IMG/VR virus record: IMGVR_UViG_3300003323_000173
Span: 1 to 23,386 of that record
DNA length: 23,386 bases
Strand: one strand, 5' to 3'
Source: a virus
Under the pieces are notes generated by a model. It was not told where the DNA came from and searched no databases. It was given only the letters and a program-made list of their open reading frames with translations. Position 1 is the first letter of the stretch. Every line of letters begins with the position of its first letter. Shown here one piece after another: positions 3,001-19,873 of this stretch. The translations under genes were made by a program, and so were the position numbers.

Positions 3001-5334
3001 GCTAAGGCAGAAACAAACACTGTAAACAAACAAAATGAATACCTGAAGAAGTTTGGTAAGATTAAAAACTTCAACAGTGCTGAGAATATCTTCGAACGTA
3101 ATATCATCGCTTTCCTTCGCCGGAACACAACCAATGGCGATCAGCAATCAGAGTTTAACCGTCGTAAAAAACTGTTGGAGGATTCCGTAGCTGTACTGAA
3201 GAAAGGCAACAAGGATGAAAGAAATAAAGCGGACTTCTATCGTAAAGCTATTGACAAGCTGAATGCTACGTCAGAAGAGACTACAATACAGGACATTGAG
3301 AGAAAGGCATCTAAAAGCAATGTGGAGGCCGTCGATTTTGTGACCAACATGTGGTCTGAATTATATCCAGAGCTTTCTGATTTTGCATTAGGCGTACACA
3401 ACATCATGCTACCAAGAGACAGCAACTATACTCCGGATAGATACGCTACACTATCTAACAAACTGACCGTAGAAGAAACGATCGATCAAAAGTCATTTGG
3501 ACTCGGGGCATTCAGTAATTTTGTTCTGGATAAAAATGAAGCTGGTGTATTAGTAGAATCCACAAGACCTAAGACCTTACCAAAAGGAAGATACGTTGAT
3601 CTGGATTTCGATACAAACATGTTTAGAGCTTACAAATTGGCTCTTACTGATATGTACACCGCAGAATCTATTGAGCAGGCTTATAGCTACCTTAAGTCGC
3701 CTGAATTCGATGAAATGGTTGATGTAGATGATGCTAATATTTTGAAGGCCGCAATATCTGATTACGTATCATCTAAGAAAGGTGGCAAGTATAGCGACAA
3801 AGACACGTTTGATTACTTCCGAAAAACCATGAACTATATTGGCGCATTGGGGGCCGGTAGAGCTTTGGCTGGATTCGGTCAGGCAATTAACCAATATTCA
3901 ACTGCCACAATGAACACCTTCATAAACGCTGGCGTAAATCTGCATCCGTGGGATATAGCCAATAAGGAGGCGATGGAATTTGTTAGTAAGTCAGGTAGAG
4001 GAATCGCTAATCGCGGACTTGAGTCTGTTACAACAATTGAGAATGCTGACAACGTAATGAAAAAGGCGTTCACCGGAAGTAAGGTTGTAAATGCTGTTCC
4101 GAAATTTATTGCTAAAGTAAACGAGATCGAGCTTCGGTGGCTCCTTTCAAAACCAGATGTTGCAGCAGCTAGAACAGCATGGCTTGCGTACTACCGAAAA
4201 TCCATGAAAGAACAAGGCTTGGAGGTGAGCTACAATCCAAAAGACCTGAACGACAAAGCTGCTGATTATGCTCAGGCCATGGTTGACCGAAATATGGATG
4301 TTTCAGATACTGAACTGAGGGGTAAATTCTTTAAGGATAAAGCTGGTTACAAAGTATTTATGAAGCAGATATTTTTCCCGTTTGCAACATTCGCTCTGAA
4401 TCAGAAAAACAGGATGTATAGTGATTTTTCTACCGTATTTTCTCCAACGGCCTCAAATAAGGATCGATTTGGCTCAATGCGATCTCTGTCTGCCTTGACA
4501 ATGGAGGCTATCACATATAATTACATAGGTTATTCAATAGGAAAAATGATACTTGATGCTGCGATGGAGTCCTTCGATTTGGATGATGAGGAAAAAAAGG
4601 CAATGAAAGATAAATATATCGAAAACATGAAGCGAAATCAGATCTCGAAAGCGGTAAAGGATTTTGTTAGCCCGTCGCCAGTGTTTGATAATTGGACGCT
4701 TATCGGCGTAAACAAGCTGATCAAGTACTCAGGATTCGGAAAAGAAGATGAGAAAGAATTCGACGAGATGATTAAAGCTGAGAATGAGAAACGTTTCAAT
4801 GAGTACAAAGAACCATTAACTGAAGAAGAAATAGAAAAGAAGAGACTAGCTTTTCATGAGAAAGAAGATTTTCAGTTCTTTGTAGATGATGCAGGTTCTA
4901 TGGGTATATACGCCATCCAATACGAGAAAGTAAAGGAAACTATGGATATGTATAGAGCTTGGAATTCAGGAGAATATACTCAGGAAACTAAGTACGGTGA
5001 ACAGGAAAAGAAACTAACCAAGGAAGGCCAAGAAAAAATGCTCTTACCATTCTTATTGAAATTCGGAGGAGCTTCTGTTTTGCCACGCGAAGCTGATCAG
5101 GCTGCAAACCGGATGTTCAAGATCGTGAAAGACAAATATGGAATCACAGAAACTCAGGCTGAAAAAATCGAAGAGCTTAAGAAACTTGGTTACAAAGAAG
5201 ATGAAGCAATGGTGAAGCTAGTTAAAGCAAAATCCGGCGCTCCGAGGACAGTTGAGGGGCTTGCGGAACATCTTGAATACATTAAGACACTTTCCGAATC
5301 TGAACTTAAGGAGTATTGGAAAGGGGTTGAATAA
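1..5334 (+). CDS. Giant polyvalent phage protein with zincin-type peptidase motif (5' end cut by window)
   Basis: An open frame runs from the first base to a TAA at 5332-5334, giving 1777 residues. The first codon is TTG and the frame is open at the edge, so the real start probably lies upstream. Residue numbers here count from the window edge. Residues 434-438 are HEAFH, a match to the HExxH zinc-protease motif, and Glu residues at 484-489 could supply the third ligand. Most of the rest is charged and helical, with a Gln/Lys-rich segment at 655-690. A more hydrophobic stretch around 1275-1560 resembles the conserved core of large polyvalent proteins in phages. Such proteins are thought to be packaged and injected with the DNA; the peptidase could cleave itself, host proteins or cell wall. 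It is the only plus-strand gene here, as expected for a late gene meeting the early block. The exact function is inferred; that it is one large phage protein is clear. Confidence 0.85.
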   Translation: MVRGLIGKGVTPDQIALTLNTASNFKAQMDADPSFENVPLEEKILMSAAYGIVSGKLEKYGLTKSLSKSPLGRNLNAYILKSVFSQLPKGASAEAVETAVESTVKGLIAKGILNTASASFIEGSTEAAQEIADMTLKEAYNEIKGKDYFDNPKTFTEALGRASESFQLGMIGGAMMNGTTHILQTPRNLRSVSQLKHLESIVENPDAKAIFENNLKAKVISREITPAQAKSQIQEMNESQALFDKIPKHVSDKYESFNLLSEKQELEQQIAGKDPVLAAPQKERIAEIDQQLYNISQDALQKQKSAGISVQPETKSSGTVQETQSEPELKSPTEQSTEETIVQEEVKPSEIDTLIEAETIPERRSTLQAVKNVETALGDTKVIVHQNSEDYASAINEFVADKESDNNRTSARFIPSRNEIHIDLDTAEPLSAYHEAFHAKIRNIDKSTLSGMVSDLRNVVKDDENLLEQANQFALNYGDSEISEETLAELTGLMANTATKLDKTNLQKFIEFINKIATKIGLPSILNKAASKGEVVNFVNDLSASFREGRTTEDVANSDTPIVSQDSSRKITPDRLAQMQLFDESYNKLIEEGSSPTDAFDKSMESVEAIQDDIKREEAIRDINRRYGKKVKAAPKAEKVIGKKKPKMVLVDDAKALVSQIKLEAKAAQQKKKQIQETLATISDTVKAMESNGKISVRQMKSILSAMKGLNMDNKVAVDRFIDYVGKAISDAQYVEKVGNAISIRKTIKRSFKGKSNPFVAVAKGFSEINPKWVENIDEYLDIAGKVKESLRPTRIQNGEIKFKQEADIQEVGKYTAREQERQNKVTEENIRNNYERITGKKADGRPAGELLAEMNSEEFIDKPDYTDEVRQVLRDTIDQFYQVITSEDPKEVQDAVKINVDILDNRTAIKIIDALDSYIANGSTAGLRAQMASYKGIEKAKNSTLKSAKLRLAGNAKLGRFQNEQFTNLNIMTERIFRGARAGLQFREESGLQGVINGSAKAETNTVNKQNEYLKKFGKIKNFNSAENIFERNIIAFLRRNTTNGDQQSEFNRRKKLLEDSVAVLKKGNKDERNKADFYRKAIDKLNATSEETTIQDIERKASKSNVEAVDFVTNMWSELYPELSDFALGVHNIMLPRDSNYTPDRYATLSNKLTVEETIDQKSFGLGAFSNFVLDKNEAGVLVESTRPKTLPKGRYVDLDFDTNMFRAYKLALTDMYTAESIEQAYSYLKSPEFDEMVDVDDANILKAAISDYVSSKKGGKYSDKDTFDYFRKTMNYIGALGAGRALAGFGQAINQYSTATMNTFINAGVNLHPWDIANKEAMEFVSKSGRGIANRGLESVTTIENADNVMKKAFTGSKVVNAVPKFIAKVNEIELRWLLSKPDVAAARTAWLAYYRKSMKEQGLEVSYNPKDLNDKAADYAQAMVDRNMDVSDTELRGKFFKDKAGYKVFMKQIFFPFATFALNQKNRMYSDFSTVFSPTASNKDRFGSMRSLSALTMEAITYNYIGYSIGKMILDAAMESFDLDDEEKKAMKDKYIENMKRNQISKAVKDFVSPSPVFDNWTLIGVNKLIKYSGFGKEDEKEFDEMIKAENEKRFNEYKEPLTEEEIEKKRLAFHEKEDFQFFVDDAGSMGIYAIQYEKVKETMDMYRAWNSGEYTQETKYGEQEKKLTKEGQEKMLLPFLLKFGGASVLPREADQAANRMFKIVKDKYGITETQAEKIEELKKLGYKEDEAMVKLVKAKSGAPRTVEGLAEHLEYIKTLSESELKEYWKGVE

Positions 5335-5871: not shown

Positions 5872-6282
5872 TTAAAACGGATCACCCGTTTGCCGTTCAA
5901 CATTTATCTTGGCTGTCCTCATGTGAAACTCCATTCTATTGCCACCCCATTTGTAGTCAAGGTATTTAGCTACATTAACACAGTTTGGTAAAGCTTGGAT
6001 GTTCCATTTGTGATAACCCTTATCTTCCTCTCGTCTATCCATGTGCAACGAAAACTTGTAGCGTCCTTTTTTGGCTATATAACCAGTTCTGATAGCGAAT
6101 TCACGATACTCATCAAGAGTCAGTGTGGTCTCAATATTCCGGCGTTTGCAGTTCTTTTTATGGTTCTGCCAACAATACTTGGCTAAATCAGATTCACGCT
6201 CTTTAATAGTCCGACATGGTCTACAAATAGATCGGCCTTTCTGAGCCTTTCTTCGGCAGTTAGGGGTTGAGCAGTTTCGCAT
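5872..6282 (-). CDS. HNH-type endonuclease with N-terminal zinc ribbon
   Basis: The 136-aa protein begins with a four-Cys cluster, C4, C9, C20 and C23 (CSTPNC and CRPC), typical of a small zinc ribbon. The C-terminal half has the HNH pattern seen in phage enzymes: LHMDRREEDKGYHKWNIQAL, with H80 and D82 followed by N94 and N103. In homing-type HNH proteins this region binds a metal and nicks or cuts DNA. Free-standing HNH genes are common in phages as selfish homing elements or as packaging helpers; this one is small and not next to packaging genes, so a homing or recombination role is more likely. Its first 23 bases overlap the end of the methyltransferase gene and resemble that gene's own start, which may bear on how the methyltransferase arrived. 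Confidence 0.75.
   Translation of the reverse strand: MRNCSTPNCRRKAQKGRSICRPCRTIKERESDLAKYCWQNHKKNCKRRNIETTLTLDEYREFAIRTGYIAKKGRYKFSLHMDRREEDKGYHKWNIQALPNCVNVAKYLDYKWGGNRMEFHMRTAKINVERQTGDPF
6260..6282 (-). repeat. Gene-junction direct repeat, copy 1
   Basis: This 23-base overlap holds the ATG of the HNH gene at one end and the stop of the methyltransferase gene at the other. It matches 7029-7051 at 18 of 23 positions, and at 14 of 15 across the core CTGCTCAAC[C/T]CCTAA. Both copies are read the same way: LLN-P or LLN-S then stop in one frame, CSTPN in the other. Confidence 0.65.
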
Positions 6283-7051
6283 TATTCCTTCTTTTTAATC
6301 CATCTTCAAAAATAATAGGATCAGACTCTATGCCTATGTATAACCTGTTAAGTCTATCGCAAACAACACCAGTAGTGTTAGAGCCTCTAACCGGATCAAG
6401 AACTACATCACCTTCATCAGTATACGTACGTATGAAGTAATCAAGAAGTGCTTCTGGTTTTTGAGTTTTATGTATAGCCAATTTCTGCTTGTCAGACGCT
6501 ATAACTTGCACACTTAAGGGGAATCTATCTGTGGAATCATAGCCATTTACTTTATCAGCATATTCATTCCCGTATATTTTGTCGGCCCCAATATTGCGCT
6601 GAATTATTCTTGATCGACACTCTGCAGAACTCACCTTTCTCTTATGCCCATGAGTTTTAATTGGGTTATATTTAGGTAGCTTGTTATAGAAGACTAATAC
6701 ATTCTCATGTGCCTTCATCGGCATCTTCTTAGAATTCAAGAAACCAGTTGGGCTAGTTTTCTGCCAAACCCAATCGTATCTAAGGTTCTTTAAATTACTC
6801 ATAGCCAGAATTGCTGTAAACGGGAATTGGCATGTGCAAATAACTACGCCGTTTGATTTCAGAACTCTGTTTGCTTCTTTCCAGAACACATTCAAATCAA
6901 TGACACTTTTGTCCCACGAAACATTTGTAGTATTGTAGGGGAAGTCAGAAAATATCATCTGTATAGAATCACTTTCAATATTTGGCATTATTTCTTCAAG
7001 CTTACCTAGGTACTCCATATTGTTCAAATTAGGAGTTGAGCAGGGTTTCAT
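6260..7051 (-). CDS. Beta-class DNA methyltransferase (N6-adenine or N4-cytosine), divergent motifs
   Basis: The 263-aa protein has the layout of phage beta-class methyltransferases. The catalytic motif IV comes first (DFPY, 36-39, in SDFPYNTTNVSWD). It is followed by a conserved middle (WQKTSPTGFLNSKKMPMKAH), then motif X (HKTQKPEALL, 194-203) and the AdoMet-binding motif I near the end (DPVRGSNTTG, 219-228). The family usually has DPPY or DLPYGTT and DxxxGSGTTG, so Gly is replaced by Asn in both places. It would methylate phage DNA, perhaps against host restriction; no partner nuclease of a restriction system is seen. The ATG at 7051 overlaps the upstream gene by 23 bases; an ATG at 7018 (MEYLGKLEE) matches the usual family start and may be the true one. 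Activity is uncertain because of the substitutions. Confidence 0.85.
   Translation of the reverse strand: MKPCSTPNLNNMEYLGKLEEIMPNIESDSIQMIFSDFPYNTTNVSWDKSVIDLNVFWKEANRVLKSNGVVICTCQFPFTAILAMSNLKNLRYDWVWQKTSPTGFLNSKKMPMKAHENVLVFYNKLPKYNPIKTHGHKRKVSSAECRSRIIQRNIGADKIYGNEYADKVNGYDSTDRFPLSVQVIASDKQKLAIHKTQKPEALLDYFIRTYTDEGDVVLDPVRGSNTTGVVCDRLNRLYIGIESDPIIFEDGLKRRNNAKLLNP
7029..7051 (-). repeat. Gene-junction direct repeat, copy 2
   Basis: Second copy of the junction sequence, here joining the stop of the 112-aa gene (LLNS then TAA) to the ATG of the methyltransferase (MKPCSTPN). With copy 1 it brackets the methyltransferase gene; from the start of one copy to the start of the other is 769 bases. 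Confidence 0.65.
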
Positions 7052-7367
7052 ATCCGATCATTTTGATGATTAGTTTAATTTCCTCAATGCTCTTTATGTA
7101 ACCAGCGAACAAAGTTGTTCCAGTGATATCCATTTTATCTTCAGGCAGAGTCATAATATAGCCACCATTCATATAGATTAAAACATAGTCTTTAGGACAA
7201 AGAAGTATATACATTGTCGTCCTGTCCTTTGATCTAAAGTCAACAACATCTCTTTGATATAGATACCTCGCGAAGTCTGCTAATTTTTTATCTAGAGAAA
7301 ATCCTATTGTTTCCAGAAATGAAGGGATTCCTGTGCCTTTAATTGAGAAATCTTTCATAACATTCAT
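7029..7367 (-). CDS. Hypothetical protein (112 aa)
   Basis: No family recognised. The sequence alternates helical and beta-like parts, with a hydrophobic stretch TTMYILLCPKDYVLIYMNGG near the middle that looks like core strands rather than a membrane segment. The C-terminal part (SIEEIKLIIKMIGYETLLN) looks helical. The start ATG at 7367 overlaps the stop of the upstream small membrane gene by ATGA, which supports translational coupling. Its last codons fall in the repeated junction sequence shared with the methyltransferase/HNH boundary, suggesting that it once lay directly before the HNH gene. Confidence 0.65.
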   Translation of the reverse strand: MNVMKDFSIKGTGIPSFLETIGFSLDKKLADFARYLYQRDVVDFRSKDRTTMYILLCPKDYVLIYMNGGYIMTLPEDKMDITGTTLFAGYIKSIEEIKLIIKMIGYETLLNS

Positions 7368-8984: not shown

Positions 8985-9224
8985 TCAAAAACTTAAATTT
9001 AATTGCCCGGGAAGCTGATCGTCAATCTCTTTCACCATCTGATCAATTCCATCTATTCGTTTCTTCAAAGCCAATATCTCTTTCTCAGCTTTGGTCTTTT
9101 CCTCCACTAATTTACGTCTTCTGAATTTGAGTTGCGCAGATTGTGGTGTTCCATCGCAGTCTACGATGTGTCGTAAATACTGGTCTGGTGGAATCGAGTC
9201 TTTGCAGTATGGGCAGGTTCTCAT
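8985..9224 (-). CDS. Zinc-finger plus coiled-coil protein (79 aa)
   Basis: The frame is open up to a TTG at 9230, but the ATG at 9224 is the better start because it overlaps the upstream stop as ATGA. The protein then begins MRTCPYCKDSIPPDQYLRHI. C4, C7, H19 and C23 (CPYC, then H and DC) form a likely zinc knuckle of the C2HC type. The remainder, with many Lys and Glu (VEEKTKAEKEILALKKRIDG), is predicted to be a coiled coil. A small DNA- or protein-binding adaptor is a reasonable reading. No specific partner is known. Confidence 0.65.
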   Translation of the reverse strand: MRTCPYCKDSIPPDQYLRHIVDCDGTPQSAQLKFRRRKLVEEKTKAEKEILALKKRIDGIDQMVKEIDDQLPGQLNLSF

Positions 9225-9472
9225 TTCCAAAGATTAAAGTAATTCATAACAAACTCACCGATTCTCATTACATCTGAGTCTTCTTCATCAACACGCTCTT
9301 CCAGTTTGCTGTGGAATTCGTGATAAAATTCGACTGCTTTAGTTACTTCTGATTGAGCGTATTCGTCCATGGCTGCGACAGCATACTTAAGATGATCCAA
9401 AATAGCGTCATCACATTTCTTTCCTGATGATTCTTCAAATTTTTCTGCTAAAATTTCCTTCGCTGTTTTCAT
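9221..9472 (-). CDS. Small helical phage protein with MDEYA motif (83 aa)
   Basis: The protein starts MKTAKEILAEKFEESSGKKC and contains AAMDEYAQSEVTKAVEFYHEF, the kind of amphipathic helix found in many short Bacteroides phage proteins and at the front of DUF551-type proteins. The gene at 16711 has a related N-terminal layout (MKSKEEILDDKI... VMEYYADQF) followed by a DUF551 tail, which is missing here. This may therefore be the head of such a protein without its tail. It is acidic and soluble. The ATG at 9472 overlaps the stop of the tiny membrane gene upstream by two bases (TAA/ATG). Confidence 0.6.
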   Translation of the reverse strand: MKTAKEILAEKFEESSGKKCDDAILDHLKYAVAAMDEYAQSEVTKAVEFYHEFHSKLEERVDEEDSDVMRIGEFVMNYFNLWK

Positions 9473-11639: not shown

Positions 11640-13466
11640 TCAGTATTTGGCATCACCATCTTGAGTGACCCGAGAACCTTTATCGAAGTCAGATTGTTCA
11701 AATCCATTCATAGGCTTAAAGGTCATTTCAACCTGCTCCATCTTGCCTTTCTTCATCTTCCGGTCATCGTCAATAAGTTTGAGTGGGGATAATCCTTGGA
11801 ATGAATACCGGTTCTGAAGACGATTAAACATTATTCCCCAAACATCTTGAGGCGTTCCTGTAAGCCTCTGCTTTCTGATCTTCTGAGATCCGAATATAAC
11901 TTCTGGGTTTGAGAAATCTAATGCTCTCTCTGGTCGCCAGACAAACAAGACGTTGTCAGCTTTATCTGGAAATGTACCGCCCCCTTTAATGTTGTTTAGG
12001 TCAGGCTTATAATACCTACCGTTAGAGTCTTTGACAGGTGTTTTTTGGTGAGCTACGAGATGAACTGAAACCTGATTCTCATTTGAGAATCTTTTAAGAT
12101 GACTCATGAATTTAGAAATATACAAGTCTTCTCTGGTATTACTTTCCATCTGATGTTCTATCGTATTGTACGGGTCAATTATTAGCGCCCTACACCCATA
12201 TTTACGGATGAGGTGCCTCGCCTTATCAAAGACAGTCTGGATACTGAAATTATCTTCTGGGTATATAATGAAGAAATGTTGGTTCACAAAATCAAATGCC
12301 TCTTTATATTCCGATCGGCTCATTTGTTGCGCCTTAAAATCAGGATCACAAGGTTTACCAATGTACGCTTCGATAAGATCGTCGTAGAATTCAGACACTG
12401 GTATATTTTCAGGGCTGAAAACAGCAAACTTCCACCCCTCCCAGTATGCTTTAATCAAACACAATTGGAGTAGGAATGTAGTCTTTCCTTCATTTTGGTA
12501 TCCAGTCCATAGGTTCAGATCATTCCTCCATTTCCATGCAGCATCGATTACTGGAATGTAGGTGGTTGTGCCCTTCGGTTTTCCATGCGTAAACGTGTCT
12601 TGCATTTCGTCCCATACATCTTCCGCTCTGAATATTCCAGAAACGGGCACTTCTTTTGCGTTCTCAAGCGTTTTACGTAGCTCAGTGACACCTTGATTCA
12701 TCAACACCTCATTAGCGTCCTTAAAAGGGCTAAAATCGACTAATAAACATCTTTCCGCGCCAAATCTCCTGATTAGCTCCTGCTGAAGTCTTCTACCATT
12801 AGCATCCATATCCACGGCCAAGTAAATTTTCTCAGCCGACTCAAACATTTCGTAGCAATTTGTAATACACTCAAGCTTCTTGTCAACATTCAGGTCTTTT
12901 TCATTTGGCGCACCCTGATTAACTGATGTTGCATAGCTGAAGCCAGCTGTATCGTAACTCATAGCATCGATCTCTCCCTCACAAACTATGATTTCTTTCT
13001 GACTAACACATCTGTCGTAATTGAACATTATTGGTTCGGCATCTTTACCTTGTCTGAAGTCCTTTCTGTCTAAAAATCGCTGTTTGTAGTTTACAAATTC
13101 GCCAAATCTGATGTACGGGAATATCACACTCATTCCGTCCTTGCTCATCACGATCTTGTTATTCATGATCGCTGGCTGAGATATTTTACGGCTTTGAAAG
13201 AATTTTAGACCAGCCTCTGTGAGATTGGTAAAGTTATCTTTAACAGGCAAAGAATATTTATTGGCGTATTCATCTTTTGGTTTAGCACACCCCTTCCATC
13301 CGCACTTGTGGCAATGGTATATTCCAGACTCAATATTCACAGAAAGAGGAGTATCCTTAAGATTCGTCTTGCCAATTTCAGCACAGTTAGGACACTGAAG
13401 CTTCTGTTCTATTTTGTTTCCTTTTGGCTTTATACCAAGGTTTTCAAGGTTTGAGAGAGTATCCAT
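11640..13466 (-). CDS. Bifunctional primase-helicase (T7 gp4-like)
   Basis: The 608-aa protein has all the parts of a replicative primase-helicase. A zinc ribbon comes first (C25, C28, C52, C55 in CPNC and CHKC). The Toprim primase core follows, with EGEID (163-167), DMDANG from 219 and KDANE at 249. The RecA/DnaB-type helicase comes last, with Walker A GYQNEGKTT (322-330), Walker B ending at D431 (ALIIDP) and the VAHQK motif around 471-475. It should unwind the fork and lay RNA primers for phage replication. The start overlaps the upstream DUF6291 gene by 23 bases. The Asn in the Walker A loop is usual for such phage enzymes, so the protein looks intact and active. No separate phage DNA polymerase is seen in the window. 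Confidence 0.92.
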   Translation of the reverse strand: MDTLSNLENLGIKPKGNKIEQKLQCPNCAEIGKTNLKDTPLSVNIESGIYHCHKCGWKGCAKPKDEYANKYSLPVKDNFTNLTEAGLKFFQSRKISQPAIMNNKIVMSKDGMSVIFPYIRFGEFVNYKQRFLDRKDFRQGKDAEPIMFNYDRCVSQKEIIVCEGEIDAMSYDTAGFSYATSVNQGAPNEKDLNVDKKLECITNCYEMFESAEKIYLAVDMDANGRRLQQELIRRFGAERCLLVDFSPFKDANEVLMNQGVTELRKTLENAKEVPVSGIFRAEDVWDEMQDTFTHGKPKGTTTYIPVIDAAWKWRNDLNLWTGYQNEGKTTFLLQLCLIKAYWEGWKFAVFSPENIPVSEFYDDLIEAYIGKPCDPDFKAQQMSRSEYKEAFDFVNQHFFIIYPEDNFSIQTVFDKARHLIRKYGCRALIIDPYNTIEHQMESNTREDLYISKFMSHLKRFSNENQVSVHLVAHQKTPVKDSNGRYYKPDLNNIKGGGTFPDKADNVLFVWRPERALDFSNPEVIFGSQKIRKQRLTGTPQDVWGIMFNRLQNRYSFQGLSPLKLIDDDRKMKKGKMEQVEMTFKPMNGFEQSDFDKGSRVTQDGDAKY

Positions 13467-16710: not shown

Positions 16711-17076
16711 TTAAGGTTTTGGTGGTTCGATAATTTCCATCCAGTAAGCAACTTTGAACCATAAACCACTAGTACTTGACCACCCATGTTTTTCGCCATA
16801 GAAACTTGCTATTGTCGTTATCCATGTTTTAGGGCTAGATTTCATTAAAACAAGAACTTTCCTGTCGCTATCTGGAATTCGCTCTTCTACAGAAATCCAC
16901 TTCGGGCGGAACTGGTCGGCGTAATATTCCATTACTGAATGGATGAATTCTTTTTCATCATCAGCGAATCTAATCTTAAAAGATTCTACCGTGCTATTTG
17001 TTGGGAGCACTGAACTTGTGTATCTGCCGTTCTGCTCCTGTATTTTATCGTCTAAAATTTCCTCTTTACTTTTCAT
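16711..17076 (-). CDS. DUF551-domain protein (121 aa)
   Basis: The C-terminal half matches DUF551: WISVEERIPDSDRKVLVLM, then the tail VAYWMEIIEPPKP. This domain is frequent in phages of both Gram-negative and Gram-positive hosts and has no known function. The N-terminal half (MKSKEEILDDKIQEQN, then FIHSVMEYYADQF) is the helical head often found in front of it, and is related in layout to the gene at 9221. The gene starts 7 bases after the stop of the small membrane gene. Confidence 0.75.
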   Translation of the reverse strand: MKSKEEILDDKIQEQNGRYTSSVLPTNSTVESFKIRFADDEKEFIHSVMEYYADQFRPKWISVEERIPDSDRKVLVLMKSSPKTWITTIASFYGEKHGWSSTSGLWFKVAYWMEIIEPPKP

Positions 17077-19219: not shown

Positions 19220-19873
19220 TTAAAAAGTAATTTTCTGGACTTCCTTCTCCACATCCTTCTGCATCTGACCGATTCTTTCTTTGATCTGATTAACTCTGTC
19301 CTTCACAATCATCATTACAGGTCTTGCTGCGGTTCCAACGTTCAATTCAGAATCCAGTGTGATCTCCTTAATGAATAATGGAATAACAGACTCAGGGCGA
19401 TAAGAAACAAAATACAGTGCCTTGAGCTTATCATTAACAGTAAATGCATGGGTACACTGGCCTACGTATTCCAACGGCACAATGTCTTCACGAATGTATT
19501 GCGTGTGTTTATCTCTACCTGGACACTTTACTTCGAGCTGAATAGTCTCACATTCAGATATAGCATCTGGCGAAATACCAAGCATGGGAAATTTATCTGA
19601 CTGAATCCATCCACATGTCTTAAACTGAATACCAAGATGCATTGCTACTTGAAAGATAGCTTCGGGTTCATATTCCAGTCCCCGAAGCATAGCCTTATTT
19701 TTGTACTCATCCTCTTCCTCCCAATTGAAGTCTTCTAATCGGCAAGCAATGAGCTTGTTTTTAAGTGTCTCGTAACCAGAGAATAGCTTTTCAGAATTGG
19801 TCCCGGATATTTTACCATACCGTATTTCATGCCATTCAACTGTGCCCTGAATAATGTCGTATCTCGCTGTCAT
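19220..19873 (-). CDS. YqaJ-type phage exonuclease (recombination)
   Basis: The 217-aa protein shows the motifs of YqaJ/lambda-exo-type nucleases: a front element EWHEIRYGKISGTNSEK; RGLEYEPEA with E67/E69; D103 in GISPDA; E114 and K116 in LEVKCPG; and Q139 in YVGQC. These residues form the metal-binding site of the restriction-endonuclease fold. The enzyme should degrade one strand from double-strand ends to leave ssDNA for annealing. Its ATG overlaps the stop of the gene at 19870, whose product is a likely partner. The 217 residues are near the normal size for the family and no residue is missing. It is the recombination gene of the early block. Confidence 0.88.
   Translation of the reverse strand: MTARYDIIQGTVEWHEIRYGKISGTNSEKLFSGYETLKNKLIACRLEDFNWEEEDEYKNKAMLRGLEYEPEAIFQVAMHLGIQFKTCGWIQSDKFPMLGISPDAISECETIQLEVKCPGRDKHTQYIREDIVPLEYVGQCTHAFTVNDKLKALYFVSYRPESVIPLFIKEITLDSELNVGTAARPVMMIVKDRVNQIKERIGQMQKDVEKEVQKITF

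Follow-up and report, generated by a model that had tools for sequence, protein, structure and literature searches.

The DNA studied is a 23,386-base IMG/VR virus fragment, the whole of which we call the window. A DNA methyltransferase gene stands there between an orphan gene for a 112-residue protein and the gene of an HNH or endonuclease-VII-like nuclease, and the genes around the two junctions are all on the minus strand (Table 1). Each junction is a 23-nt overlap, with the ATG of the next gene at its front and the TAA of the previous gene at its end. Read on the minus strand, the upstream copy (7051-7029) is ATGAAACCCTGCTCAACTCCTAA and the downstream copy (6282-6260) is ATGCGAAACTGCTCAACCCCTAA; 18 of the 23 bases are identical, as are 14 of the 15 in the core CTGCTCAACYCCTAA, and the methyltransferase gene body fits exactly between them. 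These figures reproduce those of a first-pass annotation, which had the coordinates right and had described the next ATG as first and the previous stop as last in both copies, an arrangement that we confirm.

The likeness is confined to eight codons counted from each ATG (18/24 over +1 to +24, the six mismatches including a silent C/T at +24). It begins exactly at the ATG and ends 1 nt beyond the stop, and the flanks are unrelated, with 10/30 identities in the 30 nt 5' of the ATG and 10/36 in the 36 nt 3'. All five mismatches of the 23-mer, and the sixth just beyond it, either fall in HNH codons 2-3, which vary within the HNH family, or are silent third-position changes in the codons for CSTPN. 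The base composition of the methyltransferase gene is not foreign-looking (GC 0.374 vs 0.339 and 0.418 for its neighbours).

Table 1. Features of the window discussed in the text
Feature	Position	Strand	Remarks
HNH / endonuclease-VII-like nuclease, 136 aa	5872..6282	-	phrog_3322 7e-11 (endonuclease); phrog_1035 5e-7 (endonuclease VII)
Downstream junction copy	6260..6282	-	methyltransferase 3' end (...AKLLNP-stop) in one frame, intact HNH start MRNCSTPN in the other
DNA methyltransferase, 263 aa, beta-class N6-adenine/N4-cytosine fold	6260..7051	-	body = residues 9-258
ATG, Met12	7016..7018	-	alternative start; too short for family, poor start context
TTG codon, Leu9	7025..7027	-	homologous to start codon of most family members; one base after 112-aa TAA
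Upstream junction copy	7029..7051	-	112-aa 3' end (...ETLLNS-stop) in one frame, MKPCSTPN, best read as a relic HNH-type start, in the other
112-aa gene, orphan	7029..7367	-	stop inside upstream junction copy
YqaJ-type phage recombination exonuclease	19220..19873	-	Pfam YqaJ 3e-13; phrog_149 exonuclease; phrog_434 RecE-like

Register of the junction repeat

As a bare repeat, a 14/15 match is at chance level within 2.7 kb, and longer imperfect repeats occur in the same stretch. What makes the similarity remarkable is not the repeat as such but its register, anchored on two start codons. When the 38 minus-strand genes of the window were aligned at their start codons and the ATG itself was excluded, the methyltransferase/HNH pair was the best of all gene pairs (14/15; the next reached 13), and a score of 14/15 between any two genes was attained in none of 400 null sets built from random in-frame blocks of the same genes. 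The generalised pattern ATGN6TGCTCAACYCCTAAY had no other exact match among 2.9 million IMG/VR viral contigs. Since the register is unmatched in the null sets and the pattern is absent from the other contigs, homology is much more likely than coincidence, though the stretch is short.

Two other features of the window were noted in this connection. A third 23-nt overlap, at 13444-13466 between a DUF6291 gene and the primase/helicase gene, resembles the junctions at 13 of 23 positions, which we take as chance. Two non-adjacent small genes (9221-9472 and 16711-17076) have similar starts (MKTAKEIL and MKSKEEIL, 13/15 nt), while their remainders are apparently not alike.

The methyltransferase leader and the nuclease start

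The methyltransferase itself is an ordinary beta-class enzyme. It matches Pfam N6_N4_Mtase (6e-30, 105 bits against a gathering cut-off of 26.7) and phrog_67 (1e-55), and the best structural match found by Foldseek is M.BceJIV (E 3e-17, TM 0.70), with CcrM and MboIIA close behind; the fold and the Pfam domain are common to M.BceJIV, CcrM, MboIIA, M1.HpyAVI and the window enzyme. The catalytic D-P-P-Y-type motif reads DFPY, keeping D36, P38 and Y39. Motif I reads DPVRGSNTTG, with Asn where more than 90% of the family have Gly, and the protein deviates at 8 of 55 near-invariant family positions (C18L, D31Q, G40N, L72C, A107S, P195K, G225N and A230V). G225N in motif I and P195K are among its departures from the beta-class enzymes, and such substitutions may reflect an altered specificity or a function being lost.

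The N-terminus is a different matter. In a 40-sequence alignment, the start Met of most homologues falls opposite residues 8-10 of the window protein, about three residues before the family start at residue 12 (7018) that the first-pass annotation had suggested. In an AlphaFold model the pLDDT stays under 50 over residues 1-9 and averages 94 over residues 11-20; the first strand spans residues 12-15. Because the family start lies at residues 8-10 and residues 1-9 are predicted to be disordered, the first eight residues do not belong to the methyltransferase proper. A CSTPN start was also looked for in other methyltransferases, where the first-pass annotation had held that its presence would speak against insertion, and was found in 0 of about 80 viral homologues.

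The same residues are at home in the nuclease. The HNH gene product has no Pfam match at E<=0.001; its N-terminus is a C-X4-C-X10-C-X2-C zinc ribbon, and C4, C9, C20 and C23 are invariant in an alignment of a seven-sequence subclade. Its relatives start M-x-[KR]-C-[ST]-T-P-x-C, as in L091 (MGKCTTPYC), L100 (KICSTPGC) and L101 (KRCATPYC); listed at greater length, such starts are MGKCTTPYCRNE, MKCSTLHCRN, KICSTPGCSK and KRCATPYCRK. Since the relatives share this start and the four cysteines are invariant, CSTPNC is the first half of the zinc ribbon and native to the HNH family. The earlier proposal that MKPCSTPN is a zinc-ribbon remnant therefore gains support: CSTPN is native to the HNH family and foreign to this methyltransferase, and the leader is disordered in the AlphaFold model.

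We also asked which start codon the methyltransferase is likely to use. Several homologues (L011, L015, L018, L021, L047 and others) have ATG opposite the TTG at 7027-7025. Start contexts were scored with a position matrix built from the 20 bases that precede each of 32 further starts in this one window, a small training set whose own genes range from -8.5 to +6.2; the annotated starts, each left out in turn, have a median of 2.36. On this scale ATG 7051 scores 2.73, TTG 7027 -5.75 and ATG 7018 -3.94. Because its context scores like those of real genes, the relic ATG at 7051 is probably the working start, and the methyltransferase would then carry a useless MKPCSTPN leader from a captured nuclease start.

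Related loci and a parallel junction

The 112-aa protein had no match in Pfam, PHROG or NCBIfam, and no relatives of it were found in annotated phages, viral contigs or genome contigs, in scans that reach fairly close relatives of a single sequence. The HNH alignment likewise found no match in genome contigs. Close kin identified by the primase/helicase (80 loci, 35-61% identity) have in common the primase, its upstream gene and a few others, and the HNH and 112-aa genes are absent from all 80. No relative with the 112-aa gene or with the same gene order was found, hence no empty or filled site could be compared. An HNH relative adjoins a methyltransferase in only 2 of about 46 loci. In one (L094, 2089-3336) an N6/N4 methyltransferase of another branch lies directly upstream of the HNH relative, with a gap of 54 nt; in the other (L097) the methyltransferase is downstream.

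We scored shared starts in 2,591 adjacent gene pairs. The loci surveyed had been chosen mostly because they carry methyltransferase, HNH or primase genes, and the scope of the survey is gene neighbourhoods of that kind. Five pairs reached 14/15. Four are whole-gene paralogues, and the fifth is in L035 (IMGVR_UViG_3300037329_000049), where a phrog_757 DNA methyltransferase (1002-1697, within the region 1002-1710) lies between VapE and VRR-NUC genes. This methyltransferase begins MANKDIMSANR and the following VRR-NUC gene MAKRFIMSANR, and the repeat is identical at 30 of 35 nt, with 21 consecutive bases the same. The family start, MRILVACEE, comes after an 11-residue leader, and homologues match from residues 11-13, some from residue 7. 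The VapE helicase gene ends within the first copy; one base beyond this stop region stands the methyltransferase's own ATG. As in the window, then, a methyltransferase bears a non-family leader that copies the start of the next nuclease gene, and the upstream stop falls inside the first copy; the two cases differ in the methyltransferase family, the nuclease (VRR-NUC, not HNH), the upstream gene (VapE helicase) and the extent of the repeat. Because five phages of other hosts have the order primase/helicase - VRR-NUC - SNF2 without a methyltransferase, an empty site exists for L035 at the level of gene order. Two further methyltransferases precede the SNF2 helicase in L035.

In a second survey, gene ends were matched against the starts of genes lying two or three places ahead (4,789 pairs, with a backward control). 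A score of 16/16 was seen only in L035 and L088; the window scored 14/16, and the backward control at most 14/16. We rejected L088 as a third case, as its match comes from a block of leader plus gene start that is present three times, and the upstream ORF is spurious. The three L088 segments (1646-1752, 2217-2346 and 3697-3804) have some 110 nt in common, which take in the gene starts (PAPPLEALV) and a GC-rich leader containing a hairpin-like GCGGGCAGCGCCCG, and recall the start-associated repeats of cluster K mycobacteriophages.

Origin of the arrangement

Insertion of the methyltransferase into a former 112-aa/HNH junction is plausible and likely. On the best reading, the upstream copy is what remains of an HNH-type gene start, fused to an ordinary methyltransferase gene where that gene's original start codon stood. 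In full, we consider it probable that the methyltransferase was acquired between the overlapping 112-aa and HNH genes, with the overlap doubled and the HNH start captured. In the ancestral state, the start of the HNH gene would have overlapped the end of the 112-aa gene by 23 nt, and an ordinary phage DNA methyltransferase gene would have entered between the two. With the 112-aa gene ending within the HNH start, both neighbours could be spared only if the overlap was doubled: the 112-aa gene would keep its C-terminal codons and stop in the upstream copy, the HNH gene would keep its start in the downstream copy, and the orphaned HNH ATG and the seven codons after it would remain upstream, in frame with the methyltransferase. 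Selection for both intact genes would explain why the boundaries lie at the ATG and one base past the stop, which target duplication would not predict.

The likeliest route would be recombination with a relative that already had the methyltransferase ahead of a diverged HNH allele, with a homologous crossover within HNH and an illegitimate join right after the 112-aa stop. We favour this over a fresh duplication because the mismatches fit two HNH starts; their distribution over variable codons and silent sites, which involves few positions, is a weak sign that each copy still served as an HNH start during their divergence, as alleles or paralogues would. The YqaJ-type exonuclease of the phage is a candidate source of short-homology recombination. 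Phage recombinases accept short, diverged homology, and the minimal efficient pairing segment reported for Red beta is 23-27 bp (PMC3945230); the 15-24 bp available here do not exceed this limit or fall short of it, so that on the left an illegitimate join would be likelier than annealing. Against the account counts that the presumed donor arrangement is not common, given the 2 of about 46 loci described above, as do the shortness of the shared stretch (24 nt with six mismatches) and the orphan status of the 112-aa gene. The suggestion in the first-pass annotation that the HNH nuclease helped the insertion finds no support, as nothing links the copies to cleavage and a like scar stands beside a VRR-NUC gene.

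The main rival to acquisition into the overlap, which we judge unlikely, is that the order was once 112-aa, HNH1, methyltransferase, HNH2, and that HNH1 was deleted but for eight codons, fused in frame to the methyltransferase. Several HNH genes per phage are common, the differences between the copies, in codons 2-3 and at silent positions, are those expected of two HNH genes, and the homology begins exactly at the ATG. Such a history requires, however, a deletion that stopped precisely on the start codon of the methyltransferase and a 112-aa stop already placed inside the HNH1 start, and no HNH sequence is left between the leader and residue 9 (10/36 beyond +24).

Coincidence, which we hold to be quite improbable, would mean that the 112-aa/methyltransferase junction resembles the HNH start by chance; the methyltransferase might then start at TTG 7027 or ATG 7018, with the upstream reading untranslated. 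That 14/15 repeats are no rarity in a stretch of 2.7 kb, that the 9221/16711 gene pair shares 13/15 after the ATG, and that the family start falls on the TTG next to the stop are all in keeping with chance. It leaves unexplained, however, the start-anchored match that none of the 400 null sets reached and no other IMG/VR contig repeats, the identity of five out of five residues at equivalent places in two neighbouring genes, and the independent parallel in L035.

A mobile cassette, in which the methyltransferase and one junction copy moved as a unit with a 23-bp target duplication, perhaps after HNH cleavage, is very unlikely. Near-identical 23-mers do bound the gene body, but the insert consists of one methyltransferase ORF only, with no transposase domain; the copies have diverged by 22%; homing nucleases normally mobilise their own gene; the boundaries at ATG and stop are not those that target duplication predicts; and in the parallel case the adjoining nuclease is of another family. 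Hardly credible is the tandem re-use of short N-terminal start blocks, which would make the shared start a functional element and not an insertion scar: L088 has its three copies of a leader-plus-start block, and the pairs 9221/16711 and 20419/20874 share start residues in the window, but the junction repeat ends at codon 8 with no shared upstream leader (10/30), and the HNH segment encodes a zinc ligand pair and so has its own reason for being there.

The proposed acquisition of an extra gene into the junction has its closest described counterpart in gene 68 of the subcluster I1 mycobacteriophage Island3. In PMC3029335 this gene is described as absent from Brujita and as sharing 60 bp at its 3' end with the upstream gene, while Brujita has a single recombinant copy of the boundary stretch. 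On that description, both cases have an extra gene bounded by two copies of a short stretch of a neighbouring gene (about 50-60 bp in Island3). The Island3 copy is the 3' end of the upstream gene, whereas the present copy is a downstream start within an upstream end; an empty site is known for Island3 gene 68 (Brujita), whereas none was found for the present junction; and, unlike in the Island3 account, the duplicated overlap here would give the newcomer a start codon. Short conserved boundary sequences have been proposed as guides of phage modular exchange (work cited in PMC3029335). As there presented, such sequences share with the present junction a short homology exactly at a module border; the junction differs in being protein-coding and in that one gene family explains its homology, and it may be a product of exchange and not a guide. 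Searches of open-licence papers turned up no description of the variant with duplicated overlap and start capture. The arrangement appears to be ordinary phage gene shuffling with an unusually clear scar.

Many genes overlap in tightly packed phage genomes, and how a new gene enters without breaking its neighbours is a real question. A likely principle, now with two independent examples, is that a newcomer between overlapping genes can leave both neighbours unharmed only if the overlap ends up in duplicate; the doubled overlap is what a successful entry should leave behind, and it reveals the former neighbour genes directly. It is possible, and we put it forward tentatively, that insertion between overlapping phage genes regularly leaves a doubled overlap with start capture, that methyltransferases beside nucleases are a recurrent case, and that unexplained N-terminal leaders are scars of a former gene order. 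If such footprints are common, odd N-terminal extensions attached by gene callers would be explained, and recent gene gains would be detectable in single genomes without a relative for comparison.
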